DNA of 42,661 bases. Origin: Fibrobacter sp. Its GTDB lineage: Bacteria > Fibrobacterota > Fibrobacteria > Fibrobacterales > Fibrobacteraceae. The number at the start of each line of letters is the position of its first letter. Positions within the stretch are counted from its first letter, which is position 1. A program made the position numbers and the translations under genes. The stretch lies in contig JAAZFC010000099.1 of NCBI GenBank assembly GCA_012511955.1, positions 1 to 42,661 of the forward strand, written 5' to 3'. The notes below the pieces were generated by a model. That model was not told the DNA's origin. It was given only the letters and a program-made list of their open reading frames with translations, and did not search any database. Positions 11,500 through 41,899 of this stretch are shown in pieces.

Positions 11500-12717
11500 A
11501 TGTTAAGTGCCCAAGAACAATTAGATATATTAATGCGCGGTGTCATTGAAGTTGTACCCGAAGCAGAATTACTTAAAAAGTTAGAAAACAGTGTTGCCAA
11601 AAAGCAACCTTTACGCATAAAATTGGGGGTGGATCCCACTGCACCCGATGTGCATTTGGGGCATACCGTAGTTATGCGTAAATTAGCCCAATTTCAAAAA
11701 CTTGGGCACCAGGTGATTCTTATTGTGGGTGATTATACTGCAACAGTGGGAGATCCCAGTGGCCGCAGCAGTGCACGCCCGCGTTTAACCCACGCCGAAG
11801 TTTTGGAAAATGCTAAAACATACCAAGAGCAGTTTTTTAAAGTGGTAAATCGCGAGCAAACAGAAATTGTTTATAACGGCGATTGGTTTAAAACCATGAC
11901 TTTTGACCAAATTACCCAACTTATGGGGCAAATTACCGTGGCGCAAATGTTAGAACGCGAAGATTTTCAAAATCGCTATCGCCAGGGTAATCCCATATCT
12001 TTGCACGAGTTTTTGTATCCGCTGATGCAGGGTTATGATTCTTTAAAAATCAACTCCGATGTGGAATTGGGCGGTACTGATCAGAAGTTTAATGTGTTGC
12101 GCGGTCGCGATATACAGATTAACGAAGGGCAAGAACCGCAAATAGGCTTATTTATGCCAATTTTGTTGGGAACTGACGGTAAAATCAAAATGTCCAAAAG
12201 TGTGGGGAATTATATCGGGATCAATGAAGCACCTGATGTGATGTTTCATAAAATTTATAATATCCCTGACGAAATCATGGAAGATTGGTTTATTTTACTT
12301 ACCGACTTGCCTAATTCTGAAATTGATAAAATCATTGGCGATGTTAAAAGTGGGGTTTTATCTCCATCAGATGCTAAAAATCGCTAGGCTTTAGATGTGG
12401 TTAGCCAATATTACGACATTGAAAAAGCTCAAGCAGCTGCTCAGCGAGAAAAAGCTGTGCATACAGGCCAAGCCCTACCCTCCGATGCGCTTTATTTAGA
12501 AATAGACCCAGGGGAGTACCAAGTGGCAGATTTTTTAGTGAATATTGGTGCTTTTAAATCTAAAGGCGAAGCGCGCCGCATGGTACAAAATGGTGGAGTG
12601 CGACTTAATGATGAGAAAATCGCCGATCCAGTGGGAAGCCTAGATGTAAAAGCTCAATGCAATTGGGTGGTGCGCGTGGGTAAAAGAAGATGCTTTGTGG
12701 TAAATACTAAGGATTAA
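11500..12717 (+). pseudogene. tyrS: Tyrosyl-tRNA synthetase, reading frame interrupted by one TAG
   Basis: Read through one stop, the frame gives a full-length 405-residue TyrRS. It has HLGH at 52-55, DPSGRSSARP, the tyrosine/tRNA-site block YPLMQGYDSLKINSDVELGG, KMSKS at 230-234 and a C-terminal S4 domain (VADFLVNIGAFKSKGEARRM). The in-frame TAG is at 12385-12387 (residue 296), in DAKNR-TAG-ALDVV. Homologues usually have Leu there, so TTG to TAG is the simplest single change. Terminated product would keep the catalytic domain but lose part of the anticodon-binding helices and S4. The enzyme is normally essential, so a base-call error, readthrough, or a second copy elsewhere are the alternatives. 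The ATG at 11500 follows xseB by one base. The gene converges with a minus gene one base after its stop. Confidence 0.88.
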
Positions 12718-12718
12718 T

Positions 12719-13417
12719 TTAAGCTAAGCTTAGAGCTAAATCTATAAAATTATCACTTAGTGATACTGCTAATTTGCGCATACGGTCTTTGTTTAGTGTG
12801 GTTTGTAGCTTTTCAGATTTTAATAAAGATTCTTTAAGATTAGTATTGGCTATAAGATATTCGTATAAAAATTCGATTTCTTCGGGGTTTTTAACCGTAA
12901 CATCATGATTGGAGTCATGTTCTAATAGCTCTAATTTTTGCAAAATCTTCATCAGTTCTTGCAGCTTTTTGGCACTTAGTCCATGTAAAATGTTTATTTG
13001 CTGGCTTAAATCTTCAAAACTATGAGTATCCTCTTTTTGGAGTAGTAATAGGAACACAGCAGGTAAAGCTGTTTGCAGTTCATAAAAATGTTTTAGAGAA
13101 GTGGACCTACGCAATCTGCTAATCATAATGCGTATTATGGCATAAAGCCATTGGGGCAAGACATTCAAAGTGTCTTCAAACATTTCTTGGTCTATAACTG
13201 TTAGCACAGTATCTTCTAAGGTTTTTGCAGTGGCTGAGCGTGGGGCTTTATCCACTAAAGCCATTTCTCCTAGAATATCCCCTGGTCCTAGCTCTGCAAC
13301 CATATTCATGGTGGAACCGGTTTTTTTTAGAATAGCCACACGGCCTTTCTGAATGACATACATTTTATCACCGATTTCCCCTTCATCAAAAATAGTTTGC
13401 ATGGCTTTATATCTCAT
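12719..13417 (-). CDS. Cyclic-nucleotide-binding-domain protein (second of a tandem pair)
   Basis: The 232-aa protein begins directly with a cNMP-binding beta-roll. IFDEGEIGDKMYVIQKGRVAILKK is followed by the phosphate-cassette region LGPGDILGEMALVDKAPRSATAKT (form GELALxxxxPRxAT), then the hinge helix LPQWLYAIIRIMISRLRR. The roughly 130-residue C-terminal part is helical, and I do not see a clear CRP-type helix-turn-helix. It may therefore be a CRP/FNR relative with a divergent output or a cNMP-responsive partner protein. It overlaps its upstream paralogue by 4 bases (ATGA), implying coupled synthesis. The N-terminus is short for a CRP protein. Which nucleotide is bound cannot be told. Confidence 0.8.
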   Translation of the reverse strand: MRYKAMQTIFDEGEIGDKMYVIQKGRVAILKKTGSTMNMVAELGPGDILGEMALVDKAPRSATAKTLEDTVLTVIDQEMFEDTLNVLPQWLYAIIRIMISRLRRSTSLKHFYELQTALPAVFLLLLQKEDTHSFEDLSQQINILHGLSAKKLQELMKILQKLELLEHDSNHDVTVKNPEEIEFLYEYLIANTNLKESLLKSEKLQTTLNKDRMRKLAVSLSDNFIDLALSLA

Positions 13418-14043
13418 TGAGCGCCTTCTTTTAAACTATGGGGTTTTAATGCTTGGATATCTAAGAGCTTTATTTCGTATTGTGAACTAATAGTTATGAT
13501 TTTTTGTTTACATAATTCGTCTAAATGTAATTCAATTGTTTTAGGTGTTGCGCGAGAAACCGCACTAAACTCTTTTATAACACAACTATAATTGTAAGAG
13601 CGCGCTCCATTTTGACTTTTAATCCATAAAAATAATTTAAGGCTTTCTAAGTTTTGCTGAACTGAAACCAGAAGTTTTTTGTCGTTGGATTTGCGTAAGC
13701 GCTGAGATACTACTTGCACAATGGTTTGCAGCCAAGAAGGCAGTTGCTTAATGTGAAAGTGAAAGGCATGGGGCGCAATACTGTGGAGTATTGTGTCTTC
13801 TATGGCTTGAGCTGAAGCAGAGCGTGGATTACCGTCTATTAAACTCATTTCGCCAAATACAGCTCGTTCTCCAAGTTGTGCTAATTCGATTTGTTCATTA
13901 GCTTTCTTTTTAAGAATTGCCACTCGCCCTTGTTTAATTACATAAACTTCCTGGCTACTATCCCCCTCTTTAAATACAAAATGACCAGCCCTAATATGTT
14001 TTTGTAAAGGCTGGTTCATAGAGTTGTTAGCAGCGCTGCTCAT
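13414..14043 (-). CDS. Cyclic-nucleotide-binding-domain protein (first of a tandem pair)
   Basis: This 209-aa paralogue of the next gene has the same beta-roll: HFVFKEGDSSQEVYVIKQGRVAI, then FGEMSLIDGNPRSASAQA (phosphate-binding cassette with Arg), and the hinge helix LPSWLQTIVQVVSQRLRK. The C-terminal part (CVIKEFSAVSRATPKTIELHLDELCKQKII) may form a winged helix, since its layout resembles the DNA-binding half of CRP/FNR regulators, but the recognition helix is not obvious. It lies 13 bases after rplS on the same strand, so it is probably transcribed with the rpsP operon. It ends in a 4-base overlap with its partner. Confidence 0.8.
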   Translation of the reverse strand: MSSAANNSMNQPLQKHIRAGHFVFKEGDSSQEVYVIKQGRVAILKKKANEQIELAQLGERAVFGEMSLIDGNPRSASAQAIEDTILHSIAPHAFHFHIKQLPSWLQTIVQVVSQRLRKSNDKKLLVSVQQNLESLKLFLWIKSQNGARSYNYSCVIKEFSAVSRATPKTIELHLDELCKQKIITISSQYEIKLLDIQALKPHSLKEGAQ

Positions 14044-14056
14044 GTAGGCAGGCTAA

Positions 14057-14401
14057 TTATCTTGTTCGTTCGCTAATGCGAGCTGCTCTACCGCGTAATT
14101 TGCGCATATAATAAATTCGAGCTTGACGAACTTTACCCTTGTGATCAATTTCTATGGATTCAATGCGAGGGGAATGCATTGGAAAAATGCGTTCTACAGC
14201 TACATTTCCGGAAATTTTACGAACAGTAAGTGTAGAGCCTAACCCTGTTCCTTTTTTTTGTATAACCACGCCTTTGAAGGGCTGGATACGCTCTTTGTTA
14301 CCTTCTACAACTTTTATGTTGACGGTAACGGTGTCCCCGGCACGAACAGGAACAAGTTCACGGGTAGTTTCTTGATTCAATGTTTCAATATTGACAGACA
14401 T
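14057..14401 (-). CDS. rplS: 50S ribosomal protein L19
   Basis: The 114-aa protein matches L19, which sits at the 30S-50S interface. It shows FRAGDTV-like [59 protein letters not shown] and the C-terminal [15 protein letters not shown] type block ([18 protein letters not shown]). The ATG at 14401 ([10 protein letters not shown]) is chosen because GAGG at 14410-14407 lies at ideal distance. An upstream in-frame ATG at 14425 would place that site inside the coding part. The gene is the fourth of the classical rpsP-rimM-trmD-rplS set. Confidence 0.96.
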
Positions 14402-14440
14402 AATAACCTCAATTTTATGGTGCATAATTTAGTAATATTT

Positions 14441-15151
14441 TTACAATAACCGTAGGTCTTCGTCGCTTAATTCTGTTTTTTTAAGTAAATCAGGCCTTTT
14501 TTCTTGGGTTATTTTCAAGGCTTGAGCTTTTTGCCACTGCTTAATATTTTTATGATGGCCTGAAAGTAGTACTTTGGGAACTTTAAGTCCCTCAAATTCT
14601 TCTGGGCGCGTATAAATTGGCCAGGCTAGCATGTTTTGAGAAAAACTATCGGTTTCTGCACTTTCAAATCTATTCAAAACCCCAGGGATTAATCTCACCA
14701 CTGCATCGCTAAGCATCATAGCTGCTAATTCACCACCGCTAATCACAAAATCTCCCAGAGACACTTCCATATCTACATATTTGTCTCTAATTCTCTGATC
14801 TATACCCTTATAATGACCGCATACCAAAATTAGATGCTCTTTATGGGCTAATTCTTGGGCCATTTGTTGATCAAAAGTCTTGCCATCGGGGCATAAATGT
14901 ATAACTGTCGATTGAGTTTTAGTTTTTTGACAATGTTTAATAGCTTGGGCCAATGGCTCTGGTCGTAAAACCATTCCCGCTTCGCCACCATAGGGAGCAT
15001 CATCCACTTGGCCATATTCGTTTATGGCAAAGTCTCGTAATTGCACGGTGTTAAAATCTAAAATTCCAGCTTTTTGGGCTCTACCCATAATGGAAACTTC
15101 CATGGGACTAAACATTTCTGGAAAAAGTGTGATGGCATCGATTTTAATCAT
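14441..15151 (-). CDS. trmD: tRNA (guanine-N1)-methyltransferase
   Basis: The 236-aa SPOUT enzyme methylates G37 next to the anticodon of certain tRNAs, preventing +1 frameshifting. Landmarks are MIKIDAITLFPEMFSP at the N-terminus, DDAPYGGEAGMVLRPEPL, LVCGHYKGIDQRI and the trefoil-knot SAM site DFVISGGELAAMMLSDAVVR, then YTRPEEFEGLKVPKVLLSGHH. Usual TrmD reads GGGxGM in the second block, so GGEAGM is a mild variant. The gene overlaps the end of rimM by 8 bases, consistent with coupled translation. Confidence 0.96.
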   Translation of the reverse strand: MIKIDAITLFPEMFSPMEVSIMGRAQKAGILDFNTVQLRDFAINEYGQVDDAPYGGEAGMVLRPEPLAQAIKHCQKTKTQSTVIHLCPDGKTFDQQMAQELAHKEHLILVCGHYKGIDQRIRDKYVDMEVSLGDFVISGGELAAMMLSDAVVRLIPGVLNRFESAETDSFSQNMLAWPIYTRPEEFEGLKVPKVLLSGHHKNIKQWQKAQALKITQEKRPDLLKKTELSDEDLRLL

Positions 15152-15683
15152 TGTTTTCTTCTAAATGGGGATAAACATCTTTTAGATAATCAAAGTTAAT
15201 GGTTATAGATTTATTTTTTTCATTTATTTCTATCACGCATTCATCTATCCACGGAGCAAAAATTTCATTGTTATCTATGTTTAAAATCAAAGTATCCACT
15301 GCAGGTGTATCTAAAATTTCTTTTAAAACTCCTTTTTTTAACCCATTTAAGTTTAGTATATCAAAACCGACTAAATCCACGGGGTAATATTGATCAGGGG
15401 GAGGGGCCACTCTTTCACTAAAAGGCACTTCTAAAAAGCTATTGTTTATTTCTTTGGGGGCAGAATTTAAGTCTATATCTTTAAATTTGAAAAGCCAAAA
15501 ATTGCCACTAGTACGAGCGGACTCTACTTCTACCTTAAGAGTCTTTCCAGAGCCAAAGCGCAAGCGACCGCTTCTAACTTTTTTATGCCTGTTTAGGTCA
15601 TGAGAAAGAATTTCTGCACGATATTCGCCTTTAATGCCTACCGCTTTCCTGATTTTAGCTATTGTAACCCAGTCTTTTTCCAT
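15144..15683 (-). CDS. rimM: Ribosome maturation factor RimM
   Basis: The 179-aa protein assists 30S head assembly and 16S processing, acting with S19. It has the N-terminal RimM barrel (ITIAKIRKAVGIKGEYRAEI-like start, family form GxIxxxxGxxGExxV) and the PRC-barrel half with YYPVDLVGFDIL, then FAPWIDECVIEINEKNKSI. The ATG at 15683 lies only 7 bases beyond the poly-U tract of an intrinsic terminator and has no Shine-Dalgarno sequence. Expression therefore probably depends on readthrough of that terminator and on inefficient initiation. trmD follows with an overlap. Confidence 0.93.
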   Translation of the reverse strand: MEKDWVTIAKIRKAVGIKGEYRAEILSHDLNRHKKVRSGRLRFGSGKTLKVEVESARTSGNFWLFKFKDIDLNSAPKEINNSFLEVPFSERVAPPPDQYYPVDLVGFDILNLNGLKKGVLKEILDTPAVDTLILNIDNNEIFAPWIDECVIEINEKNKSITINFDYLKDVYPHLEENND

Positions 15684-15690
15684 AATGGTT

Positions 15691-15716
15691 AAAAAAAAGA
15701 GCCTAGATAGGCTCTT
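15691..15716 (-). terminator. Intrinsic terminator/attenuator between rpsP and rimM
   Basis: On the minus strand a perfect inverted repeat (AAGAGCCTA, 2-base loop, TAGGCTCTT, at 15716-15697) is followed by eight U residues (15698-15691). It lies 23 bases after the rpsP stop and ends just before the rimM ATG. It should lower rimM-trmD-rplS transcription relative to S16. Confidence 0.85.
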
Positions 15717-15739
15717 GTATAAAGTTATTTAAATTGAAG

Positions 15740-16210
15740 TTATTTCTCTTCAGCTGTTTCTTCAGTTTTTTCTGCTGCTGCCTTTTCGGCTTCTTCTTTT
15801 GCTGCTTTTTCAGCTTCAGCTGCTGCGGCTTTTTCTGCTTCAGCTGCCTTTTCAGCTTCCACTTTGGCTTTAGCTTTTTTACTTAGTTTAGTTCCTTTTT
15901 CTGCTTTTGCTTTAGGTTCTGGAACTCTGCCAGTAATGTCTTGACCAGCTTTTTGCGCATGGAATAAATCCATTATTCCTTGTTGGCGTAATAAAGAACG
16001 CACAGTATCAGAAGGTTGAGCGCCAGTGTTCAGCCATTTTAAAACTTTTTCGTAATCAAAGTTAATTTGTGGTACTTTGGTGTTTGGGTTATAAAAACCC
16101 ACTTGCTCGATAAATTTACCGTCGCGAGATTTGCGGCTATCTACTACTACAGCGCGATATACGGGGTAGTGGCGTTTGCCAAAGCGAGTTAAGCGAATTA
16201 CTGTTGCCAT
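15740..16210 (-). CDS. rpsP: 30S ribosomal protein S16 with a long Ala/Glu/Lys tail
   Basis: Residues 1-85 are a standard S16: MATVIRLTRFGKRHYPVYR, VVDSRKSRDGKFIEQVGFYNP, then DTVRSLLRQQGIMD. S16 is a 16S rRNA-binding protein needed early in 30S assembly. The total of 156 aa is nearly twice the usual 80-90. The extra about 60 residues are almost wholly Ala, Glu and Lys (AEKAAEAEKAAAAEAEKAAK) and probably form a long charged helix or disordered tail. Extended S16 tails occur in some phyla; no function can be assigned here. GGAG lies 6 bases before the ATG, and a good promoter lies just upstream. It leads the rpsP-rimM-trmD-rplS operon. Confidence 0.95.
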   Translation of the reverse strand: MATVIRLTRFGKRHYPVYRAVVVDSRKSRDGKFIEQVGFYNPNTKVPQINFDYEKVLKWLNTGAQPSDTVRSLLRQQGIMDLFHAQKAGQDITGRVPEPKAKAEKGTKLSKKAKAKVEAEKAAEAEKAAAAEAEKAAKEEAEKAAAEKTEETAEEK

Positions 16211-16236
16211 ATTTCTCCAGTTAATGTTAAGTTCAA

Positions 16237-16264
16237 ATTATAGCTAAATAAATTTATATGTAAA
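16237..16264 (-). promoter_or_regulatory. Promoter of the rpsP operon
   Basis: On the minus strand TTTACA (16264-16259) is spaced 16 bases from a perfect TATAAT (16242-16237), about 26 bases upstream of the rpsP ATG. It is a strong sigma70-type match at the expected place for a ribosomal protein operon. Confidence 0.7.
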
Positions 16265-16274
16265 GGACGGAAAG

Positions 16275-18569
16275 TTAAGTTTCAGCAAATTCCCCAGTTT
16301 TTTTCGCGTATCCAATAATTGCACCCACAGTAACCATTAGAATAACAATGGAACTTATTATCCAAAATAGGGAATGTCCTTCAAATATTTGATAAGTTAA
16401 AGTAGCTAAAGTCCATCCTAATACCGTGGCATATAGTATTTGTAAAATAGTGAGCACCGAACCAATTTCTTTCACTGCTACTGCTACTGTGGCTATACAA
16501 GGTACATAGAGCAGCACAAAAAGTAAAAATGCGAATGCGGCGGCTTTACTATGATCAAATTTATCTCGCATGGCGGCAAAAATCCCTTCATCTACTTCCA
16601 AGGCTTCAGCACCCTCTGCAGATTCTTTTACACTACTTAATGATAGTCCCAAGGGGTCAATTAAGCGCTTGCCTAGAGCCCAAGTGTTTTCAGGGATAGA
16701 TGCAAAAGCTTCGCCCATGGCTTCTTTAAAGGAAAAAACTTCCTCTTCGACTTTTTTGGTGTTCGCTTCTTGAGCATATAGAGAATTAAGAGTGCCTACT
16801 ATAACTTCTTTGGCAAACAATCCAGTGAAAAGTCCCATGGCTGCGGGCCAGTTGTCTTCTTTGATACCCATGGGAGCAAAAACAGGTGTTACCGTTTTAC
16901 CAACTGCGGCCAATACTGAATCCTGACTTTCTACCCCAAAAGTGCCGTTGGTACCCACATTGTTTAAAATTCCCAAAATTGCAATAATGGGAATAAGCAT
17001 TTTACCGCCATTTCTTATAAAAGACCGCACCCTAAACCAAGCGTTGCCTAGCACAGCGGAAACTTGTGGAATATGATAGGGAGGGAGTTCCATAATAAAA
17101 GTGGAAAGTTCACCTTTATAGACTGTGCCTTTAAGTAATAACCCTGTAATAACAGCTAATACTACGCCAATTAAATACAAAGCAAATACGATATTTTGCC
17201 CAGTGCCTGGGAAAAACGCTGCGGCAAATAGCACATAAACGGGCAAGCGCGCCCCACAAGACATAAAAGGCACTATAAATACGCTTAAGATCCTATCCCT
17301 TTTGTTTTCTAAGGCTCTAGTGGCCATAATTGCAGGAACAGTACAACCAAAACCTACAAGCATGGGAATAAACGCTTTGCCTGGCAAGCCTATGGCTCGC
17401 ATAAATTTATCCATGACAAAAGCCGCTCGTGACATATATCCAGAGCTTTCTAGCACTGCGATTGCCAAAAACAAAATGAATATAATGGGAATAAAAGTGG
17501 CTAAGGTTTGGATTCCTGTGCCTAAACCATGAGCAAAAAAGGTAATGAAAAAGTCAGGAGCATTCCATGAATTAAGCAAACTTTCTAATCCATCAACAAA
17601 AATTGCTCCAAAAGAAAGGTCAAAAAACTCAATGAATATTTCGCCAACATTTATGGTCAACCAAAAAACCATATACATGATAAACAAGAATATGGGCAAT
17701 CCCCACCAGCGATTTAAAACTACTCCATCAATCTTGTCGGTTAAAGTTGCTTTAGGCGTGCTATGGTGGCCTTTGATGCTATGTTGTAATGAGGCTTCTA
17801 TTTGTTGATAGCGAATTTCGGCAATCCACTCATCGGGATGAATTCCCTGCTGTTGTAAAATACGGTTTCTTGTTTCAGCAATTAAGTTGGCATCAAAAAT
17901 GTTTTTTTCAACGCATAAATTTTCGAGTTCAAGATCGCCCTCGATAATTTTTAAAGCCAACCATTGGGGGTTCCAAGATTTTTTTTGTGCTAGATCCCCT
18001 AATACTGAGCTGAGCAAATCCACCTCTTCGTTTAACTCGTGGGGCAGCTGCATTTCGTAAGTAGGGCGAGTTTTCCCAGATGATGCAAATTTTTCTACGG
18101 CAGTGATTATCTTAGCTTTAGCATTTTTTGCCAGTGCAGAAATAGAAACCACCGGTAAATCTAAAGCTTTAGAGAGTCTAGCAGCACTAATACGCAAACC
18201 TTGTTTAACGGCTAAGTCTTGCATATTGAGCACTAAAAGCAAAGGTACACCCATTTCTTGCAGTTGTTTACTCAGATAGAGATTGCGTTCTAAATTGGTG
18301 CTGTCCACCACTTGTACCACTAAAGAGGCTTCGTTGGCTAGGAGGTAATCCCTTGCCACACGTTCGTCTTCGCTCCATGCGTTAAGTGAGTATATACCAG
18401 GTAAATCTACCACAGTAATTTTTTGATTATCGGTAAAAATAGTCCCAATTTTTTTATCTACGGTAACACCTGGCCAATTTCCTACTTTTTGGTTGCTACC
18501 AGTGAGTAAATTGAAAACAGTGCTCTTCCCTGAGTTGGGATTCCCTGCAATAGCTATGGTTAAACTCAT
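16275..18569 (-). CDS. feoB: Ferrous iron transporter FeoB
   Basis: The 764-aa inner-membrane protein imports Fe2+. The N-terminal GTPase has G1 GNPNSGKST (residues 9-17), VGNWPGVTVDKK (switch I), G3 DLPGIYSL and G4 NMQD. The membrane part carries two gate regions with the conserved cysteine motifs GFGCTVPAIMATRALENKRDR and PFMSCGARLPVY, several hydrophobic helices, and GLFAKEVIVGTLNSLY. Length is normal for FeoB. AAGGTG then AAGG precede the ATG. A 21-base Fur palindrome overlaps the promoter, so iron repression is expected. feoA is not adjacent: a GH16 gene on the other strand separates them. No clear terminator lies between feoB and the rpsP promoter. Confidence 0.96.
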   Translation of the reverse strand: MSLTIAIAGNPNSGKSTVFNLLTGSNQKVGNWPGVTVDKKIGTIFTDNQKITVVDLPGIYSLNAWSEDERVARDYLLANEASLVVQVVDSTNLERNLYLSKQLQEMGVPLLLVLNMQDLAVKQGLRISAARLSKALDLPVVSISALAKNAKAKIITAVEKFASSGKTRPTYEMQLPHELNEEVDLLSSVLGDLAQKKSWNPQWLALKIIEGDLELENLCVEKNIFDANLIAETRNRILQQQGIHPDEWIAEIRYQQIEASLQHSIKGHHSTPKATLTDKIDGVVLNRWWGLPIFLFIMYMVFWLTINVGEIFIEFFDLSFGAIFVDGLESLLNSWNAPDFFITFFAHGLGTGIQTLATFIPIIFILFLAIAVLESSGYMSRAAFVMDKFMRAIGLPGKAFIPMLVGFGCTVPAIMATRALENKRDRILSVFIVPFMSCGARLPVYVLFAAAFFPGTGQNIVFALYLIGVVLAVITGLLLKGTVYKGELSTFIMELPPYHIPQVSAVLGNAWFRVRSFIRNGGKMLIPIIAILGILNNVGTNGTFGVESQDSVLAAVGKTVTPVFAPMGIKEDNWPAAMGLFTGLFAKEVIVGTLNSLYAQEANTKKVEEEVFSFKEAMGEAFASIPENTWALGKRLIDPLGLSLSSVKESAEGAEALEVDEGIFAAMRDKFDHSKAAAFAFLLFVLLYVPCIATVAVAVKEIGSVLTILQILYATVLGWTLATLTYQIFEGHSLFWIISSIVILMVTVGAIIGYAKKTGEFAET

Positions 18570-18579
18570 CCTTCACCTT

Positions 18580-18600
18580 GATTGAGAACGATTCTCAATC
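18580..18600 (-). promoter_or_regulatory. Fur box of feoB
   Basis: A perfect 21-base palindrome has arms GATTGAGAA and TTCTCAATC around CGA. It has the 7-1-7 TGAGAATnnTTCTCA look of Fur operators. It overlaps the -10 and start region of the feoB promoter, 11 bases upstream of the ATG. Repression by Fe2+-Fur is inferred. Confidence 0.8.
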
Positions 18601-18625
18601 TAGTTATAGGCGTTCAAATTGTCAA
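18597..18625 (-). promoter_or_regulatory. Promoter of feoB
   Basis: On the minus strand a perfect TTGACA (18625-18620) is spaced 17 bases from TAGATT (18602-18597). The -10 overlaps the edge of the Fur palindrome, so bound Fur would exclude RNA polymerase. Confidence 0.65.
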
Positions 18626-18721
18626 CATAAATACAAGATTTTAAAAAGTTTTTCTCTTATAATTCTTTACTTATAGTTAAATTCTTTAAAGGTGAGCAAA
18701 AAATATGTGTTAGGAGTAGAA

Positions 18722-19969
18722 ATGAGAAGTACACTAGCTTTTTTAGCTTTGCTTTTGATTGCAAATCTTTGGGCAGCGCCCCCGCCGAGTTTAGAGGGGT
18801 GGGAATTAGTTTTTGAGGACCAATTTACTGGTAATAGTTTAGATCTAAGCAAATGGAACCCCACTTACAACTGGGGAAAAACTCACAATCATCGGGCATT
18901 TTGCGTGCCAGAAAATGTCTTAGTAGAGGATGGTAAACTGCGTATTAAAGGAGAAGCTAAACGCCATCCTGATGCTCCTCCCACCGCATCTAATGGGGGA
19001 GAGACTTATTCCCTAGACTATACTTCGGGGGCCATAGATACGCGCAATAAGTTTGAGGTTAAGTACGGTTATATAGAAGGGCGTTTTAAAGCTCCCAAGC
19101 ATCAGGGGACTTGGCCAGCTTTTTGGACTTTGCAAGATGGTTGGCCCCCAGAAATTGATATTTTAGAAATACCCCACAATCGCAAAGAGCATCACTATTA
19201 CTTACATTTCACTCAGCCCGATTGGTACGACAAACATGGACAAGCATGGGATCACGAAGCTTCTTTTGGGGGCGTGCATAGCGGACCCGATAAATCCGCA
19301 GGCTTTTATAATTATGGCGTAGATTGGTACGAGGGTAATTTAGACTTTTATTTTGACGATAAGCGCATAGCTTCTTACCACAGACCTCGAGAAGTGGGGC
19401 AGTTAAATAAGCAATATCTTTTGGTAAATTTAGCCATTGGTGGTTGGGCGGGGAACACCATCGAAGTTACTGCCAATAATCCCGCATATTATGAGGCTGA
19501 ATGGGTGCGCGTGTGGCAACCCAAAAAGACTCTTCCCGATATTGTGCGTTTGCAATCCGTGGCCAACGATAAATGTATGTTAGGCCAAGATAAGAAGATA
19601 GTTATGGGGGATTGCTTGGATAAAGCCGCCGAAGTTAATTTAGAAGCTTTGAGCGGTTCAATTTACCGCATAAATTTTGGTGAAAAAGTTTTGGAAATCC
19701 CCAATGAGTCTAAAGATGCTGGGGCAAACACTGGCTTATGGGATTGGAATGGCAAAGATCATCAACGCATGGAGTTGCGCATCCAAAAAGATTTTGAAAG
19801 CACAGTGGTGCGTATAAAAATGCAGCATAGTGGGCACTATTTACGCTTGGCAGGGGATTCGGCGGTGATCCAGGATTGGGATGATGCTTGGTCCTGGAAC
19901 CAAAACTGGAAAATCATCAAAGATTTGGCAGAGCTAGAGAATGAAGATCCAGTATATATGGCGAAATAA
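18722..19969 (+). CDS. Secreted GH16 family beta-glucanase (laminarinase/lichenase type)
   Basis: The 415-aa product starts with a signal peptide (MRSTLAFLALLLIANLWAA) and then a GH16 jellyroll: WELVFEDQFTGNSLDLSKW, GYIEGRFKAPKHQGTWPAFW, and the catalytic signature EIDILE with E144 (nucleophile), D146 and E149 (acid/base). The region from about 285 (LQSVANDKCMLGQDKK to NWKII) looks like a ricin-B/CBM13-type lectin. Substrate is probably beta-1,3 or mixed-linkage glucan; the exact specificity cannot be read. The ATG at 18722 has AGGAG 5 bases upstream. A -10-like TATAAT at 18658-18663 lies ahead without a good -35. The frame ends at TAA 19967, but continues in frame into a sorting domain, listed next. 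It lies between feoB and feoA on the opposite strand. Confidence 0.88.
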   Translation: MRSTLAFLALLLIANLWAAPPPSLEGWELVFEDQFTGNSLDLSKWNPTYNWGKTHNHRAFCVPENVLVEDGKLRIKGEAKRHPDAPPTASNGGETYSLDYTSGAIDTRNKFEVKYGYIEGRFKAPKHQGTWPAFWTLQDGWPPEIDILEIPHNRKEHHYYLHFTQPDWYDKHGQAWDHEASFGGVHSGPDKSAGFYNYGVDWYEGNLDFYFDDKRIASYHRPREVGQLNKQYLLVNLAIGGWAGNTIEVTANNPAYYEAEWVRVWQPKKTLPDIVRLQSVANDKCMLGQDKKIVMGDCLDKAAEVNLEALSGSIYRINFGEKVLEIPNESKDAGANTGLWDWNGKDHQRMELRIQKDFESTVVRIKMQHSGHYLRLAGDSAVIQDWDDAWSWNQNWKIIKDLAELENEDPVYMAK

Positions 19970-20206
19970 GAAGTGATTGTGCCGATCAAAACTTTGACCC
20001 ATTCTCAGGGCATAGATTTACAATTAGGTTCTCAGTTTGTTGAAGGAGCTCAAGTAAAAATCATTGACATGCGCGGCAAGGTGTTGTATAATGAATTTAT
20101 AAGCGAGAATCAAAATGTAAACACCCAGACTTGGCGGCCTGGGGTGTATAGAGTTGTATTCAAAAATGCTCAAAAAACAGAAGTTTTGACTGCACTTAAT
20201 TATTAA
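19970..20206 (+). pseudogene. C-terminal sorting domain of the GH16 enzyme, cut off by an in-frame TAA
   Basis: Directly after the TAA (19967-19969) the same frame continues for 78 codons. It contains IDLQLGSQFVEGAQVKIIDMRGKVLYNEF, then WRPGVYRVVFKN. This beta-sandwich pattern (VxIxDxxGKxV, later GxYxVxF) is the type-IX-like C-terminal sorting domain found on secreted enzymes of Bacteroidota and Fibrobacterota. A start inside this piece (GTG 19973) would give a sorting domain with no signal peptide and no cargo, which makes no sense alone. So the original protein was most likely 494 residues. The TAA is either an error, a real truncation that releases the enzyme from its export route, or read through. 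Confidence 0.75.
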
Positions 20207-20248
20207 CTAAGGTGATGCTACAAGCTAACTACTCGATATCTGCGTTTA

Positions 20249-20500
20249 TTAAGAAGCTTTCTTCACTAAAATAGAGTTCGCTTCGTGTTTGCGCAAAGAT
20301 AGTCTGTAACCTCTGAGTTCTATCTCTACAGGGTCGCCCAAAGGAGCTTTTTTCACTATCCTAAACGTGGTGTTACGAGTGAGGCCCAGAGCTAATAACT
20401 TCATCCTATAAGCGGGATCTGTCATATCGTATTTAGCAATAGAAGCATAATCACCAACTTTAAGTTGTGATATATTTGTCAAGTTAGAATTGTGGCGCAT
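20249..20500 (-). CDS. feoA: Ferrous iron transport protein FeoA
   Basis: The 83-aa protein is an SH3-like FeoA, a small cytosolic partner that supports FeoB. It shows ISQLKVGDYASIAKY, RMKLLALGLTRNTTFRIVKKAPLGDPVEIELRGYRLSLRKHEA, the family pattern of L-x-x-LGL-x-x-G then GDP-ixi-xxgxxlaLRxxEA. The ATG at 20500 (MRHNSNL) is chosen because GAGG lies 4 bases upstream and because a longer frame from 20536 would make the Fur box and -10 part of the coding sequence. The gene has its own Fur-controlled promoter and is separated from feoB by the GH16 gene. Confidence 0.92.
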   Translation of the reverse strand: MRHNSNLTNISQLKVGDYASIAKYDMTDPAYRMKLLALGLTRNTTFRIVKKAPLGDPVEIELRGYRLSLRKHEANSILVKKAS

Positions 20501-20510
20501 AAAACCTCTT

Positions 20511-20525
20511 TGAGAATCAATCTCA
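20511..20525 (-). promoter_or_regulatory. Fur box of feoA
   Basis: TGAGAATCAATCTCA is a 7-1-7 palindrome with one mismatched pair. It closely resembles the feoB operator and lies between the -10 and the feoA Shine-Dalgarno sequence. Repression by Fe2+-Fur is inferred. Confidence 0.75.
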
Positions 20526-20526
20526 A

Positions 20527-20553
20527 TGTATATCATATTTCTGCTTTTGTCAA
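20527..20553 (-). promoter_or_regulatory. Promoter of feoA
   Basis: On the minus strand a perfect TTGACA (20553-20548) is followed after 15 bases by TATACA (20532-20527). A TACATT alternative gives 17-base spacing. The Fur box follows immediately and covers the expected start site. Confidence 0.6.
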
Positions 20554-20576
20554 GCAGAAATTAGCAAAAGTTTAAT

Positions 20577-20606
20577 AAAAAAAGCCACCCCCTAAAGGAG
20601 GTGGCT
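20577..20606 (-). terminator. Intrinsic terminator of the GH51 glucanase gene
   Basis: On the minus strand AGCCACC(T)CC, a short loop and GG(G)GGTGGCT (20606-20583) form a stable GC-rich hairpin followed by seven U residues (20583-20577). It lies 24 bases after the GH51 stop and upstream of the feoA promoter, insulating feoA. Confidence 0.88.
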
Positions 20607-32307: not shown

Positions 32308-32379
32308 GGGCCAGTAGCTCAGTGGTAGAGCAACGCCCTTTTAAGGCGTGGGTCGAAGGTTCAAGTCCTTCCTGGCTCA
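32308..32379 (+). tRNA. tRNA-Lys (anticodon TTT)
   Basis: The 72-base gene folds into a complete cloverleaf. The acceptor stem is GGGCCAG with CTGGCTC (one G-T pair), the D stem GCTC/GAGC, the anticodon stem ACGCC/GGCGT, the T stem GAAGG/CCTTC with loop TTCAAGT, and the discriminator base is A. The seven-base anticodon loop is CTTTTAA, which places TTT at 34-36. It reads AAA and AAG. CCA is not encoded. It has its own promoter and terminator and stands alone between the HD-GYP gene and mfd. Confidence 0.95.
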
Positions 32380-35400: not shown

Positions 35401-35743
35401 ATTGCAACAAGAATTACGAGATCGATACGGTCCCTTACCCCAAGCAGTTACTAATTTAATTTTAACTACTAAAGCTGGTTTTTGGGCGAAAATAGTTGGC
35501 ATTCAACGGGTGCAAGTGAAAAATGGTCTATTAATCTTGACTTTTTTGGAAAATCCCGTGCCCGATTTGCAAAAAATGAGTGCTGGAGCAGAAAAAATCC
35601 CTTATCCTTTGCGCTTTTTATCTAACACTCCTCTGCAGATGGTGGTGGAATTGCCACCCCAATCAGGCGAGCATGCTAAAACCCAATGGGCGGAGCTAGG
35701 GGTGGGAGTTATGGGAGATTTAGGAAAGGTTTTTATTATATAG
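32426..35743 (+). CDS. mfd: Transcription-repair coupling factor Mfd
   Basis: The 1105-aa protein removes stalled RNA polymerase from DNA lesions and recruits UvrA. The N-terminal UvrB-like part includes YFPSLGISAYEDK and GDFSLRGCILDI. The polymerase-interacting CarD-like domain starts near 432 (GDVVVHQDHGVGKFKG). The translocase has Walker A GDVGFGKT (584-591), VVGTHALL, DEEQ (685-688), MSATPIPRT and the RecG-type block MSQLYQMRGRVGRS. A C-terminal TRCF domain (AYLPENWI then EELRDRYGPLP) completes it. Length is in the usual range. It is followed after about 36 bases by a SurA-like lipoprotein gene. Confidence 0.97.
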   Translation: MIETLSAHLTLADENLPNLAWQSHTLNTIRSTSLSFRALLLAKSFLHNPRNIMVVCADEKSAGKWQDNLRGILGEQAVAYFPSLGISAYEDKLPFRRILEQRLEVLVHAPQRPMVVVAPLAAVMFKLASPQSFKQQGQAFAVNEVLDLDEVYQWLIQSGYEEQSMVENVGDFSLRGCILDINPFLQENPLRIELFGDEIESIRTFDLFSQRSVEELRQVKIFPMGEFTFDENGESHGVFSAKSALTRASDIFQWLPQQNIVLDEVEKIFSQVPQLNAQQQQIYADSGLDSSLEPANFWLNLEQLEAYWNNRERLGFSSVLFEENHAQQYAMDLQGRNSGNLDLVGKNIEEFHARGAQVWVVAPNQGHAQRLKQILDGLPIAGVLVGHIEEGFWCEDLGVAYLTDHQIFNRPPRRPKKVALSSSVQSAVQLDSLNVGDVVVHQDHGVGKFKGLSRIQVADAWVDCVILEYAENATLQFPVEDLYKIEALQVSEDYTPALHKLGSKRWENAKARVRKRIVKIAKELVELYARRQVIPGHAFPPDGPAQKEFEAAFEHEDTPDQSRATQEIKKDLELNRPMDRLVCGDVGFGKTEIAFRALFKVVQERKQVAFLVPTTILAAQHYESVRNRFADWPVQVELLNRYRSPKEKRAVLGKLASGEVDVVVGTHALLSATIEFHDLGLLIIDEEQRFGVKQKERLRALRENVDTLAMSATPIPRTMHLSMTGVRDISLINTPPRNRLPIDTSVVQYDEKILTQALEAEFQRGGQSFVVYDRVKDIDQVAEKVQGWMPPARVAVAHGQMHEKDLEAVMNAFVSGSVDILVATSIIENGLDVPNANTMIVLNAHNFGMSQLYQMRGRVGRSNINAFAYLVTPASGIITPVAQKRLEALEHCTDLGSGYQLAMRDLEIRGAGNLLGDEQHGFIAEVGFDTYVRMVREAVEELQGKVATPVLQPKVELGVDAYLPENWIIDGVQRVALYQRLVRIEKLAEFGELQQELRDRYGPLPQAVTNLILTTKAGFWAKIVGIQRVQVKNGLLILTFLENPVPDLQKMSAGAEKIPYPLRFLSNTPLQMVVELPPQSGEHAKTQWAELGVGVMGDLGKVFII

Positions 35744-35779
35744 TAGTCTAAAGCCGTGGTAAATACTAAATTATCAGTT

Positions 35780-36556
35780 ATGCGTTTTTTAATGTTCATG
35801 CTTTTGTTTACGCTCGTTTCTTGTGAAAAGTTTTTTCACACTAGTTTGCCCGTGGCTAAGGTGGGAGACAGTGTTTTGACTTTAGTTCAACTCAAGCAAA
35901 GTTTGCCCAGTGCCGAACACGGAAATAGTCAAGCTAAAATGAGTTTTATCAATCAATGGGTGGATCACGAAGTTCTATACCAAGAAGCACTGCAACAGGA
36001 TTTGCATAAAGATCCCCAAGTGGCGTGGCTTATGCACGATGCCCAACGGAAAGTATTAATTTATGCTCTTTTAGATAGTATGGCGAGTACAGTTAAAGAG
36101 CCTGACGAAGGTCAAATAGAAGCTTTTTATGCCACAAATTCTCATAAATATACTTTAGAAGAGTCTTTGTATAAATATTCTTATATAAATTCTCCCAATG
36201 GTAAAATAGCCTGGGAAGTTTACAAACAGATTCCTAGAGTGAGTTGGGATAGTGTGCAAGAATGGACCACTTTAAATCGAGTAGATTCATGTTTGTGGTC
36301 TCATTTGCAAAAAGATAAAATCGGAGCCATAAGCTATCCCCAAAGATGTCAAGATTTTCAGGTTATAGTGCGTATAGATTCTGTGCGGAAAGCAGGAGAG
36401 CGTAAAACTTACGAAGAGGCTAGATCTTTGGCTTTGGCACAAATGAGTCGAAAAGAGCGTTTAGCAGCGATAGATTCGGCTACTAAGGCTTTAAAAATTA
36501 CCCATCCAGTTTTTACTTGGAAAGAGAATTTTATAGTAAAGGAAGAAAATGATTAG
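35780..36556 (+). CDS. Lipoprotein related to the SurA/PpiC chaperone N-domain
   Basis: The 258-aa protein begins with a lipoprotein signal (MRFLMFMLLFTLVSC, lipobox LVSC), so it is probably attached to the outer or inner membrane. The following VAKVGDSVLTLVQLKQSL and INQWVDHEVLYQEALQQ match the SurA/PpiC N-terminal chaperone helices. EGQIEAFYATNSHKYT matches the linker before a parvulin domain. No parvulin signature (GGxxG, F block) is visible in the last 130 residues, so it is probably a chaperone without isomerase activity. A GTG at 35756 would extend it by 8 residues. ATG 35780 fits the signal peptide better. It overlaps the true SurA-like gene by 8 bases. Confidence 0.75.
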   Translation: MRFLMFMLLFTLVSCEKFFHTSLPVAKVGDSVLTLVQLKQSLPSAEHGNSQAKMSFINQWVDHEVLYQEALQQDLHKDPQVAWLMHDAQRKVLIYALLDSMASTVKEPDEGQIEAFYATNSHKYTLEESLYKYSYINSPNGKIAWEVYKQIPRVSWDSVQEWTTLNRVDSCLWSHLQKDKIGAISYPQRCQDFQVIVRIDSVRKAGERKTYEEARSLALAQMSRKERLAAIDSATKALKITHPVFTWKENFIVKEEND

Positions 36557-37820
36557 AGTACTGTTATTGGTTTTAGTTTCTCTGAGTTTTGCTGCTAGAG
36601 AAAAAGTAGAGTCTGTGGTGGCTTTAGTGGATGGCAAAGTTATTTTGCAAAGCGAATTAATGAGTGCTGTGGAGCAAAGCCAAGGTGCCCCTGGTTTCGG
36701 TGGTTTAAGCCCCCAGGAGCAAAAAGCCAAGGTTTTAGAAAGCTTAATAGATGAAAAAGTGATTATGTCTAGGGCTTCTCGGGATTCCATCGAGGTTTCT
36801 GATGATGAAGTTCGCAATAGGGTAGATATGCACTTGCAAAGCATTGCCCTAAGTCAAGGGGTAGATCAATACCGTTTGGAGCAGGCCATTCAAGCCCAAC
36901 TTGGCATGACCATGGCCCAATATAGAGAGCAATTATCAGCACAATTCTACGATCAATACTTAATGGCGCGTATTAGACAAAGATATATTGGTTTAGTGCA
37001 ACCCACTCGTAAAGATGTGGAGGCTTTTTACCAAGAATATCGAGATTCCTTACCCAAACAATACAATAGCATAAAGGTAAGTCATATTCAGCTTCCCCTA
37101 GAAGCATCCACCGAAATTGTAGATTCAGTGCGCAATTTAGCTGTGCAAATCATCGACAGCTTAGATCAGGGCATAGCCTGGGAAAGCTTAGTGGCCCGCC
37201 ATTCCCAAGATACTTCTGCTCGCCAAGGGGGTGATTTAGGCTTTTGGCGTAAAGGTTCTCTTGAACCCAGCTTTGAGCGAGTGGCTTGGCGCATGCAAAT
37301 TGGGCAATATTCAGAAATACCAGTTAAAACCCGTTTGGGCTGGCATATTATAAAAATCCTAGCCAAAAAAGATGAACAGCTGCGCACGGCGCAAATTTTA
37401 TTGCGAGTTAAACCTAGCGTGGCTGATTCCATAGCTTTGCATCAGCGTTTAGATTCTTTGGTAAATGCAGCGCGAAGCGGAGCGGATTTCGTTGCCATGG
37501 CAAAAACCCATAGCCAAGATCCCGAAACTAATTGGCGTGGAGGGTCTCTGGGGTGGATGGAGCGCAATCAATTGGATAGTGCTTATCAACAAGAGATTGC
37601 CAATCTCGAAGATGGCGAAGTTAGTGACCCTGTACAAATTGAAAATCATTGGCATATATTTAAGTTAGATGAGTCTATGGCAGTACGCTCTTTAACCCTA
37701 GAAGACGACTATAACTTGATAGAAGATATTGTAATCAATAAAATCAGTTCCGAAAAAATGCAAGTTCTTGTAGAAAAATGGCGCAAAGAAGTCTTTATTG
37801 AAGTGAGAAATAAAAAGTAA
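36549..37820 (+). CDS. SurA-like periplasmic peptidyl-prolyl isomerase
   Basis: The 423-aa protein has a short signal peptide (MIRVLLLVLVSLSFAA), then VVALVDGKVILQSELMSAV, LIDEKVIMSRA (SurA N-domain) and two parvulin domains. The first, about 175-280, has VSHIQLPL, HSQDTSARQGGDLGFW and TRLGWHIIKI. The second, about 280-385, has AQILLRVKP, HSQDPETNWRGGSLGWM and NHWHIFKL. Such proteins guide outer-membrane proteins through the periplasm. It matches SurA in order and length. It forms a pair with the preceding lipoprotein gene, which shares only the N-domain. Confidence 0.88.
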   Translation: MIRVLLLVLVSLSFAAREKVESVVALVDGKVILQSELMSAVEQSQGAPGFGGLSPQEQKAKVLESLIDEKVIMSRASRDSIEVSDDEVRNRVDMHLQSIALSQGVDQYRLEQAIQAQLGMTMAQYREQLSAQFYDQYLMARIRQRYIGLVQPTRKDVEAFYQEYRDSLPKQYNSIKVSHIQLPLEASTEIVDSVRNLAVQIIDSLDQGIAWESLVARHSQDTSARQGGDLGFWRKGSLEPSFERVAWRMQIGQYSEIPVKTRLGWHIIKILAKKDEQLRTAQILLRVKPSVADSIALHQRLDSLVNAARSGADFVAMAKTHSQDPETNWRGGSLGWMERNQLDSAYQQEIANLEDGEVSDPVQIENHWHIFKLDESMAVRSLTLEDDYNLIEDIVINKISSEKMQVLVEKWRKEVFIEVRNKK

Positions 37821-37833
37821 TAGTTTGGTGTTT

Positions 37834-38565
37834 ATGCAAAATTATTCCTTGCTCGCAAAATATTACGACCATTTTATGGATCATGTGGCATACAGTTCTT
37901 GGGCGAATTTTATTGAAAACTTGATAACTAAAAATAATTTAAGAACCGAAATTATTTTAGAAATAGCTGCGGGAACTTGTCGTTTGGTGGAAAGTATGCA
38001 AAATATTGCATACCAACAGTATATTTGCACAGATTTGTCTTTACCCATGTTGCAGCAAAGCAAAAATTCTTTTCCCAAAGCTGTGGTGGACATTTGCCAT
38101 ATTCCTTTTGCCGATAATAGCGTAAATATGGTATTAATGACCTACGACGCTTTTAATTATTTGAATCCAGAACAAGCTTCCCAAGCTCTGTCTGAAGTGC
38201 GTAGAGTTTTGCAAAAAGGCGGTGCTTTTATATTCGATGTTAGCACTGAATACAATTCCCTTAAATGGTTTGACGATTATTGCGATGTTTTAAAAATTGA
38301 TGGGGCCACCATTGTCCGCGAAAGCAATTATGATTTTAATCTAGCTGTACAACATAATAATTTCACGTTTTTCATGCCCACGGAAGAAAAAGATATTTAT
38401 CGCCAGCAAAAAGAGCACCATGTTCAATATGTTTATTCCGAAGAAATGTTGGAGGATTGGCTGTGTGATAAAGGATTTGAGGTGGCAGCGAAATATGGTG
38501 ATTTTGAACTAGGAAACACTAAAAATAATACAGAACGCATCCATTTTATGGCGGTGAAACCATGA
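37834..38565 (+). CDS. Class I SAM-dependent methyltransferase
   Basis: The 243-aa protein has a Rossmann methyltransferase fold: YSLLAKYYDHFMDHV at the N-terminus, motif I IILEIAAGTCRLVESM (family EVGCGTG), CTDLSLPMLQ (motif Post I), CHIPFADNSVNMVLMTYDAFNY (motifs II/III) and RRVLQKGGAFIFDV. Such enzymes methylate small molecules, proteins or RNA; the substrate cannot be inferred. The ATG at 37834 (MQNYSLL) is preferred over TTG 37825 and GTG 37828, which add only three residues. It overlaps ftsE by 4 bases (ATGA). Confidence 0.8.
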   Translation: MQNYSLLAKYYDHFMDHVAYSSWANFIENLITKNNLRTEIILEIAAGTCRLVESMQNIAYQQYICTDLSLPMLQQSKNSFPKAVVDICHIPFADNSVNMVLMTYDAFNYLNPEQASQALSEVRRVLQKGGAFIFDVSTEYNSLKWFDDYCDVLKIDGATIVRESNYDFNLAVQHNNFTFFMPTEEKDIYRQQKEHHVQYVYSEEMLEDWLCDKGFEVAAKYGDFELGNTKNNTERIHFMAVKP

Positions 38566-39251
38566 TTCATTTTATGCATGTTACTAAAAGCTATGCCCAG
38601 GGTTGGAAAGCTTTAAATGATGTTAGCTTTAAAATAAATAAGGGCGAGTTTGTATTTTTAACAGGACATTCGGGGGCGGGAAAGACCACTATATTAAGAT
38701 TAATTTATATGGATGAGCGCCCTGATAAAGAACGAGGTGGGCAAGTGTTGGTGCAAATGACACCATAATTGAGTTTCGATAGTAAAAACACCCCTGATAG
38801 CCAAATTCAGACCTTGCGACGCAAATTAGGTATAGTTTTTCAGGATTTTAAACTATTAAATGACCGTAATGTCTTTGAAAATATCGCCTTAGCTTTGCGA
38901 ATTTCCGGTTATCCTAACCATCAAATTAAACCCAAAGTTTATGAAGCCATGACTTTGGTGGGGATTAGTCAACGGCGTTTTGCTATGCCTTACACCTTGT
39001 CCGGGGGAGAGCAACAACGAGTGGCCATCGCTCGCGCCATGGTGCATGATCCTTATATTTTACTTGCCGATGAACCCACGGGAAATTTAGATCCCGAAAA
39101 TGCCCACGGTGTATTTGAAATCTTTAAAGAAATCAATGCTCGGGGCACAGCGGTGCTTATGGCCACCCACAACCCAAACTTCTATTTAAACAGCACTTTT
39201 CGCCGTTTAAACCTAGAGCAAGGGCGCTTATTAAATAGAGAAATCTTATAA
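38562..39251 (+). pseudogene. ftsE: Cell division ATP-binding protein FtsE, frame interrupted by one TAA
   Basis: Read through one stop, the frame gives a complete 229-residue ABC ATPase of the FtsE type. It has Walker A GHSGAGKTT (35-43), RRKLGIVFQDFKLL (Q loop), signature LSGGEQQR (146-153), Walker B ILLADEPTGNLD (D170, E171) and the His switch MATHN. FtsE works with the membrane protein FtsX at the septum to activate cell wall hydrolases. The in-frame TAA is at 38766-38768 (residue 69, GQVLVQMTP then LSFDSK). Stopping there leaves only the Walker A part, which cannot work. No ftsX follows; a CheA gene comes next. A base error, decay or readthrough are possible. It is coupled to the preceding methyltransferase by a 4-base overlap. 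Confidence 0.85.
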
Positions 39252-39265
39252 AACCATTATATTTC

Positions 39266-39293
39266 TTGCATAAACACAAAACTTTGATACAAT
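39266..39293 (+). promoter_or_regulatory. Promoter of the second chemosensory operon
   Basis: TTGCAT (39266-39271) is spaced 16 bases from TACAAT (39288-39293) in the 89-base gap before the second cheA. An ideal ribosome site AAAGGAGG (39327-39334) lies six bases before the ATG at 39341. Confidence 0.55.
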
Positions 39294-39340
39294 AAATTAA
39301 GAGAGGTTTTTGCGTTAGTTGTTGTGAAAGGAGGAAAATA

Positions 39341-41899
39341 ATGACTGATGATGGGTCAGATAGCGAAATATTAAGTTTACTTTCACAGTTAGAAGTTTTA
39401 GTAAATCAGATGAATGTTCATGATTTGCCCACTTTGGTAAATCTTTTTCCTATCATAGATAAAATTAATTGCTGCGATAAAATTCCTTCAGCTTTTGTGG
39501 CTAAAACTTGTCGCATCAAAGAAGATATAGAAGCTGCTATAATGGGTGAAACAGTTTTAGAGAGTGTGTTGCCCAGAATTAAACATGGACTTTTTACGGC
39601 TATATCTAGTTTAAGCCCTTCTACTAATGTAGTTGCAGAAAAGAAAAGTTCACCTATGAAGTCTTTGCCAGAGAAAGAACCGTCCTCTAAAAGCGAAATT
39701 ACTGTAGAAGTTGATTTGGATTTAGTGCGAAAATTCTGTGATGAACAACAAAATCATTTAGAAGACTTAGAGATATACGCCTTAGAATGGGAAAAAGGTT
39801 GTGCCCAAGCTTTACCTGAAATAAAGCGTTATTTACATACTTTAAAAGGCGAGTTTGGGGTTTTAAATTACCCTCAACTGGCGAATTTAATCCATATAGT
39901 AGAAGATGCCCTAGATCAAGATAAATTTAGTGCCGATTATCTTTTACGACTAAAAGATTATTTAAGTAATGTAATGCCATTGCTGTACAAAGGGCAAAGT
40001 GCTGAAATAGAAACTAAGGATTTGATAGAGCTTGGACTAGCAGTCGCAGAAGAAAAAATAGAAAAGGCCGAAAATCCTGAGGAAACTAACACAGATTTTG
40101 CCAATGATCCCAGTTTTGTCATAGATTTTATATAAGAGTCCCTAGAGCATATAGCTGATATGGAAGCTAATTTGCTCCAACTAGACGATGACCTAAACAA
40201 TATTGAAAGATTACATACCTTTTTTAGAGCTTGTCATACCATTAAAGGTTTGGCGGGTTTTTTACGATTTGATGATATTCAAGAGTTGGCCCATGTTGTA
40301 GAAACTTTAGTGGATGAATTGCGCGAGGGTAAATTTGAAGTTAAACATTGCCATGTGGATGTGCTTTTTACCGCCGTGGATTTATTTAAGGACTTATTTG
40401 AGGTGGTGCGTGCTAGTTTAGAGGGGGTTACATTGGTGCGCCCTACAAACTTTGCTAAGGTGCTTAAATGCTTAGTTAATGTAAATAGAAGCGATTGTGA
40501 TTTCAAAGTGGATCCTACCAAAAAGCTAGGTGAAGTTTTAGTGGATGCGGGTATCATTCACCCAAAAAGAGTGGAAACAGCCATTGTTAAGCAGGTCAGG
40601 GGAGATAAACGCAAAGTGGGGGAGATTTTAGTAGAAGAATCGGTGATTACTCCCCAAACTGTGGAAAAAGTGTTACACGCGCAAAAAGAAGGGCGTTCTA
40701 AACGCTCATCTGAAATAATAGAAGAATCCGTGCGAGTGCCAGTACGCCGTTTGGATCATCTCATAGACTCCATTGGCGAAGCGGTAATTGCCCAATCCAT
40801 GATTGCAGCGGATCCTTTAATTAATGATGAAAATTTTGAAGCCAGTGGGGCAGATAGAGAATTACTGCGCTTAAAGGTAGCCCGAGCCGAAGTTATCATG
40901 CGCCAAATCCAAGAACTTTCCATGTCTTTGCGCATGGTTTCCATTAGGAGTGTTTTTCAAAAAATGGGTCGCTTGGTGCGAGATTTATCGCGGGAAACTG
41001 GTAAAAAAGTGGATTTAATTTTAGAGGGAGAAAACACTGAATTAGACAAAACCGTCATCGAAAACATAGGCGACCCCTTGGTGCACATGGTGCGCAACGC
41101 TTTGGATCATGGCTTGGAAACTGTGGAAGAGCGTTTGGCTAATAATAAACCCGAGCAAGGCACGCTGAAGCTGCATGCTTTTCACTGTGCGGGCAATGTG
41201 CATATAGAAATCAAAGATGATGGGCGTGGTTTAGATAAAGCTCAAATTTTAAATAAAGCCATAGAGCGAGGTATTGTAGATGGCAAGCAAAGCTTGTCTG
41301 ATACCGAGATTTACAATTTGATTTTTGCTCCTGGATTTTCCACCGCAGCGGAAGTTACCAATATTTCTGGGCGTGGGGTGGGCATGGATGTGGTGCGTAA
41401 AAACATTGAAGAACTGCGCGGTTCCGTAGAAATTAGTTCTGAATTAGGTCGTGGCACTACTTTTACCATCGCATTGCCCCTTACTTTGGCCATTATTGAC
41501 GGTATGGTGGTGAGTTTAGATAGTGAACGCTATATAGTTCCCACTTTGAGTATTGTTACTACAGTGGCTTTGGAATCTGGAATGATTTCCACTGTGGCCG
41601 GTAAAGGCGAAGTTATCACTTTACGGGGCGAACTGGTGCGCTTGGTGCGTTTAGAACATCTTTTTAATGAAGCTACTACTTGGCAAAATTCAAAAAATGG
41701 CGTGGTAGTGGTTCTCAGCGACTCTACGGGGAAAAAAGTGGGGCTTTTGGTAGATGAAATTTTGGAACAACAGCAGGTAGTAATCAAAAACATGGGAGGT
41801 TCTATAGTCGAAGTCCCCGGTATCAGTGGGGGTGCAATTATGAATGATGGCACTGTTAGTCTTATTATAGATGTGGCAATGCTATTGAGACAAATTTAA
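39341..41899 (+). pseudogene. CheA-type kinase with two HPt domains and MshEN-like motifs, frame interrupted by one TAA
   Basis: Read through one stop, the frame encodes an 852-residue chemotaxis kinase. The first HPt has LHTLKGEFGVL (H166). The second HPt has ACHTIKGLAGFL (H299). Tandem MshEN-like motifs lie at 395-448. Then come dimerisation helices, an HATPase (GDPLVHMVRNALDHG near 575, KDDGRGLD, FAPGFSTAAEVTNISGRG) and one C-terminal CheW-like domain. No receiver is present. The TAA at 40133-40135 (residue 265) falls in DFI-TAA-ESLEHI at the start of the second HPt, where Glu or Gln is common, so GAA or CAA to TAA is a single change. Restart at ATG 40160 would give a 579-aa kinase whose second HPt lacks the first part of its opening helix. 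Sequencing error, truncation or readthrough are the options. Confidence 0.85.
40523..40684 (+). other. Tandem MshEN-like 24-residue motifs inside the second CheA
   Basis: Two 24-residue repeats run from KLGEVLVDAGII to a final Q (40523-40594) and from KVGEILVEESVIT to a final Q (40613-40684), separated by six residues. The pattern xLGxxLxxxGxIxxxxVxxxxxxQ is that of the MshEN/GspE N-terminal c-di-GMP-binding fold. Position 1 is Lys instead of Arg in both, and the second motif has Ser for Gly at position 10. Confidence 0.65.

Follow-up and report, generated by a model that had tools for sequence, protein, structure and literature searches.

In bacterial stop-codon reassignment (UGA to Trp or Gly), conserved genes carry in-frame stops, and a stop can also be read without a new anticodon, as described for readthrough by a tRNA-Trp with a 4-bp anticodon stem (PMC13092985). 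An alternative-code screen of more than 250,000 genomes found that in-frame stops of pseudogenes or contamination imitate recoding (PMC8629427). When an essential gene of a draft genome contains an in-frame stop, this may be misread as recoding or as decay. The DNA analysed here (the window) is the entire 42,661-nucleotide contig C81 of a Fibrobacterota draft genome of 2.68 Mb in 150 contigs, with a completeness of 96.85% and an estimated contamination of 2.95%; judged by FtsE, its nearest named relative is a metagenome-assembled genome labelled uncultured Fibrobacteres bacterium (L226). As the initial annotation had reported, four genes of the window are each interrupted by one stop in a continuous frame:

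11467..12717, plus strand: tyrS (tyrosyl-tRNA synthetase), interrupted; with the stop translated as X, the sequence gives a full-length match to TIGR00234, residues 17-415
12385..12387, plus strand: in-frame TAG of tyrS, codon 307; Leu in 24 of 24 relatives
18722..20206, plus strand: GH16 glycoside hydrolase with a lectin-like domain and a Por-type C-terminal sorting tail, interrupted; PF00722, PF14200 and PF18962 on the read-through
19967..19969, plus strand: in-frame TAA of the GH16 gene, in the linker that joins the lectin-like domain to the C-terminal tail; relatives vary at this column
32308..32379, plus strand: tRNA-Lys (TTT), the sole tRNA of the window and not a suppressor; normal 5-bp anticodon stem
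38562..39251, plus strand: ftsE (cell division ATP-binding protein), interrupted; the read-through matches TIGR02673, residues 1-222, above the cut-off
38766..38768, plus strand: in-frame TAA of ftsE, codon 69; mostly Asp or Glu in relatives, column variable
39341..41899, plus strand: second cheA, interrupted; Pfam and NCBIfam domains on the read-through
40133..40135, plus strand: in-frame TAA of the second cheA, codon 265, close to where the second Hpt domain begins; relatives vary at this column

The homology claimed on both sides of the stops was borne out. The tyrS, ftsE and second cheA genes are interrupted within a conserved protein; FtsE is 82% identical to its closest relative, and the second CheA aligns to its relatives on either side of residue 265 and comprises, on the read-through, two Hpt domains, an MshE-type c-di-GMP motif, and dimerisation, HATPase and CheW domains. 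In the GH16 gene the stop falls within a linker, and homology extends to either side of it too, relatives carrying both parts stop-free in one frame with 53-60% identity. The stop in tyrS cuts off the S4/C-terminal tRNA-binding region of the only copy of this gene, which has a single match in its own genome. The contig carries two separate CheA-CheW clusters (window positions 5261-9613 and 39341-42434), the latter being a second chemotaxis operon whose CheA has its MshE-type c-di-GMP-binding motif between the Hpt and dimerisation domains; a comparable CheA match is absent from most same-family relatives.

No frameshifted or split gene was noticed when 26 other ORFs of the window, some of them long and with no or partial family matches, were compared with NCBIfam, in agreement with the initial annotation. 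Stops without frameshift fit substitution-type errors. True mutation likewise yields substitutions without frameshift. Each stop could mark a gene that a genuine nonsense mutation has inactivated, be it as a recent pseudogene or as part of a genome in decay; gene decay would, however, be expected to bring frameshifts as well.

The stops had been described for the window. A scan based on codon usage, which looked for stops flanked on both sides by coding sequence, covered 1.47 Mb, about 55% of the genome, and a candidate was accepted as a true interruption when a protein family or orthologue spanned the stop. A strict scan of 693 kb had suggested that the stops are restricted to contig C81, which was overturned by this looser scan: at least 12 homology-verified interruptions, across 12 other contigs, were present in the 1,428 kb outside the window:

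L024: flagellin, TAA, the stop lying between two domains of the same protein
L041: Fib_succ/CotH protein, TAA
L150: cytidylyltransferase-PEP mutase fusion, TAA
L163, contig C33: gyrB, TAA
L165: class II fructose-bisphosphate aldolase (fba), TAA; column variable
L170: acyl-CoA carboxyltransferase, TAA; Tyr in the top structures
L185: family 5 solute-binding protein, TAA
L196: family 2 glycosyltransferase, TAA
L213: clpC, TAA
L224: lacZ, TAG, between two Pfam domains but within the alignment to solved beta-galactosidases
L155: bacterial PH-domain protein, TAG
L009:17811-17813, contig C1, minus strand: sprA (type 9 secretion outer-membrane translocon), TGA

In total, 16 verified interruptions (12 TAA, 3 TAG and 1 TGA) were found on 13 contigs in 1.47 Mb, a lower bound, since the scan demands at least 40 codons 5' and at least 30 codons 3' of each stop. 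The statement that no stop is TGA therefore holds within the window (one TAG and three TAA) and fails for the genome, given the verified TGA in sprA; this gene is uninterrupted in all family relatives, and its stop column holds Phe or Tyr in nine relatives. At these sites, the orthologues of gyrB, sprA, tyrS and ftsE have no internal stop in about 30 relatives from the same family, order and class, and the same is true of the GH16 and cheA orthologues in those relatives that have them. In the gyrB gene (L163:9988-11190), 11 residues including the stop occur in this genome alone, at columns that are invariant elsewhere, compared with at most three such residues in each relative; several of the 11 are no more than 30 codons away from the stop, a local excess that is not significant.

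Most scan candidates were normal junctions between adjacent genes, which also made up the main part of a rough baseline scan of other organisms' loci. Many same-frame ORF pairs proved to be natural operon junctions (ddl with the next gene, rpe, atpA/atpG and gcvT/gcvH), and the stop-bearing histidine-kinase matches on contig C48 corresponded to a natural end and a natural junction. The only other TGA candidate, L153 (SPFH/GYF protein), was rejected as an interruption and assigned to a natural gene end, because most orthologues terminate at a similar position. For the relative G017, an internal TAA that had seemed to lie in tyrS was likewise dismissed, no internal stop being present in tblastn. 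Own-genome matches of tyrS, ftsE, cheA and GH16 contained no second haplotype of the interrupted genes, and self-comparison of the 1.47 Mb revealed short repeats only; those at the ends of L024, L027, L037, L149, L174, L175 and L202 are 91-98% identical, and such repeats, many of them at contig ends, are probably the cause of assembly breaks.

With the codon usage of this genome, random single substitutions would produce TAA, TAG and TGA in the proportion 49:28:23, and 4.7% of them would be nonsense. The observed 12/3/1 does not differ significantly from this expectation (chi-square p = 0.10), with TGA slightly rarer than expected (at most 1 of 16, P = 0.09). The hits are spread irrespective of gene over 13 contigs and over essential and accessory functions, with no sign of selection against them. 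The stop types are compatible with codon usage and the hits are scattered over the genome, as expected of random substitutions. Verified nonsense changes occur about once per 90 kb genome-wide, and 16 of them imply about 340 substitutions, or about 2.6 per 10,000 bases (about 1 in 4,000). No missense excess was seen near the stops in four genes examined for it, where few changes are expected at this rate. Observations that count against errors as the source include a consensus error of about 2.6e-4, which is high for a well-covered assembly, and a number of stops in the window above the genome-wide rate. Four were found in 42.7 kb against 0.36 expected from the outside rate (Poisson P = 5e-4, a value uncorrected for the choice of the window on account of these very stops). 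Lower coverage or more strain mixing on contig C81 may account for this local excess.

The higher stop density here than elsewhere and the estimated bin contamination could also point to a contig binned in from a recoded organism or phage. This origin is scarcely credible, since the same kind of stops occurs on twelve other contigs, ftsE and tyrS are closest to the same-family genome G010 (82% and 69%, respectively), and most genes on the contig have ordinary stops and represent chromosomal housekeeping content.

The residues replaced by the stops were then compared. Conserved residues have been lost in three genes, namely Leu in tyrS (24/24), Lys in gyrB (19/19), and Tyr in the carboxyltransferase, as judged from its top structures, while the stop columns of ftsE, cheA, GH16 and fba are variable. 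In the family 2 glycosyltransferase, the stop falls at what we take to be the Gln position of the QxxRW motif. Of the ancestral residues proposed earlier, Leu in TyrRS was upheld; the CheA column, for which Glu or Gln had been proposed, is variable. The differing residues need different base changes and speak against one reassigned amino acid and against one type of chemical damage; the many in-frame sites conserved for one amino acid that would mark recoding were not found. The earlier preference for errors or mutation over a single reassigned amino acid is thus strengthened by the three well-conserved sites, the other columns being variable.

The initial annotation had noted that an ochre suppressor would read TAA and TAG together, and had proposed a search for tRNAs with UUA or CUA anticodons and for changes in prfA. 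An ochre-type suppressor tRNA, or weak termination, would cause TAA and TAG to be read as sense in some contexts; 15 of the 16 stops are TAA or TAG, and essential single-copy genes, the products of which must be made, are among those interrupted. Yet the genome-wide search revealed no UUA, CUA or UCA anticodon among 33 tRNAs, although a suppressor might lie among genes missing from the assembly, which is without some expected tRNAs (e.g., Ala-TGC and Ile-GAT). Normal 5-bp anticodon stems were present in all 14 tRNAs checked (Lys, Tyr, Ser, Trp, Gln, Leu and Glu), and 4-bp-stem readthrough is therefore not applicable to them. The prfA gene runs off the end of L140 (contig C9), so that its 3' end is cut; in the portion of RF1 present, about three quarters of the protein, the PAT recognition motif and the GGQ motif are unchanged, and RF2 has its SPF and GGQ motifs. 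In a 693-kb sample, TAA terminates 180 of 299 ORFs of at least 300 codons (60%), which accords with the remark that most genes end in TAA. Neither a tRNA reading the stops, nor an altered or lost release factor, nor avoidance of TAA as terminator was thus found, and the in-frame TGA in sprA also argues against an ochre suppressor. Considering, in addition, that the conserved residues are Leu, Lys and Tyr rather than one amino acid, that the stops are absent in relatives, and that in-frame stops of pseudogenes or contamination are documented imitators of recoding (PMC8629427), suppression appears very unlikely; it is neither required nor supported. Even less probable is that, with normal release factors, inefficient UAA/UAG termination is tolerated, the stops in essential genes being translated by near-cognate tRNAs with the incorporation of mixed amino acids.

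TyrS and GyrB are essential in bacteria, and the fixed loss of the C-terminal quarter of the former or of the Toprim domain of the latter should be lethal. No second full-length tyrS, which the initial annotation had considered a sign of decay, was found, its one match in the genome being the gene itself; gyrB has one close match, the second being a paralogue with 36% identity. Fixed real stops in these genes would probably be lethal, because tyrS is present only once and gyrB lacks a close paralogue; the second copy or dispensable function expected under gene decay is therefore lacking for both. It follows that the stops are either absent from most cells or read through, and the decoding evidence opposes readthrough. 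Real nonsense mutation as the general cause is thus unlikely, all the more so as ftsE, fba, clpC and sprA are also interrupted. The GH16, cheA, flagellin, lacZ and Fib_succ/CotH genes could be dispensable, and in genes of this kind a few of the stops may be due to true mutation.

Taken together, these data indicate, with a probability of roughly 0.8, that each of the four stops goes back to a separate single-base substitution in the consensus, arising from sequencing or assembly errors or from minority-strain alleles, and is not a decoding signal. Such substitutions would have entered the draft consensus by either route, and the stops of the window would be part of a genome-wide scatter of nonsense changes. 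In living cells the affected genes would most likely be read from a sense codon, and we infer that the reads carry sense codons at these positions. The assembly does contain the stop codons as read, but they most likely do not reflect the organism itself. Annotation of this genome has probably mis-split about 1% of its genes. Had suppression been true, it would have altered ideas on the strictness required of termination. In the present genome, error, recoding and decay could be told apart without raw reads on the basis of the genome-wide count, the mixture of stop types, the mixture of lost residues, and a normal decoding machinery.

Compared with known systems, the present stops differ from bacterial UGA reassignment in being mostly TAA and TAG, in being few per genome, and in the lack of a dedicated tRNA, of release-factor loss and of a common residue. 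They differ from readthrough by the 4-bp-stem tRNA-Trp (PMC13092985) in that the tRNA-Trp stem has 5 bp here and the stops are mainly UAA and UAG. With nonsense pseudogenes they share a single stop in an otherwise intact frame, but here essential single-copy genes are hit. The likeness to consensus errors and minority alleles of metagenome-assembled genomes is closer: although the local density on contig C81 exceeds the genome average, both involve single substitutions distributed over many contigs, random genes including essential ones, and mixed stop types that are absent from relatives.
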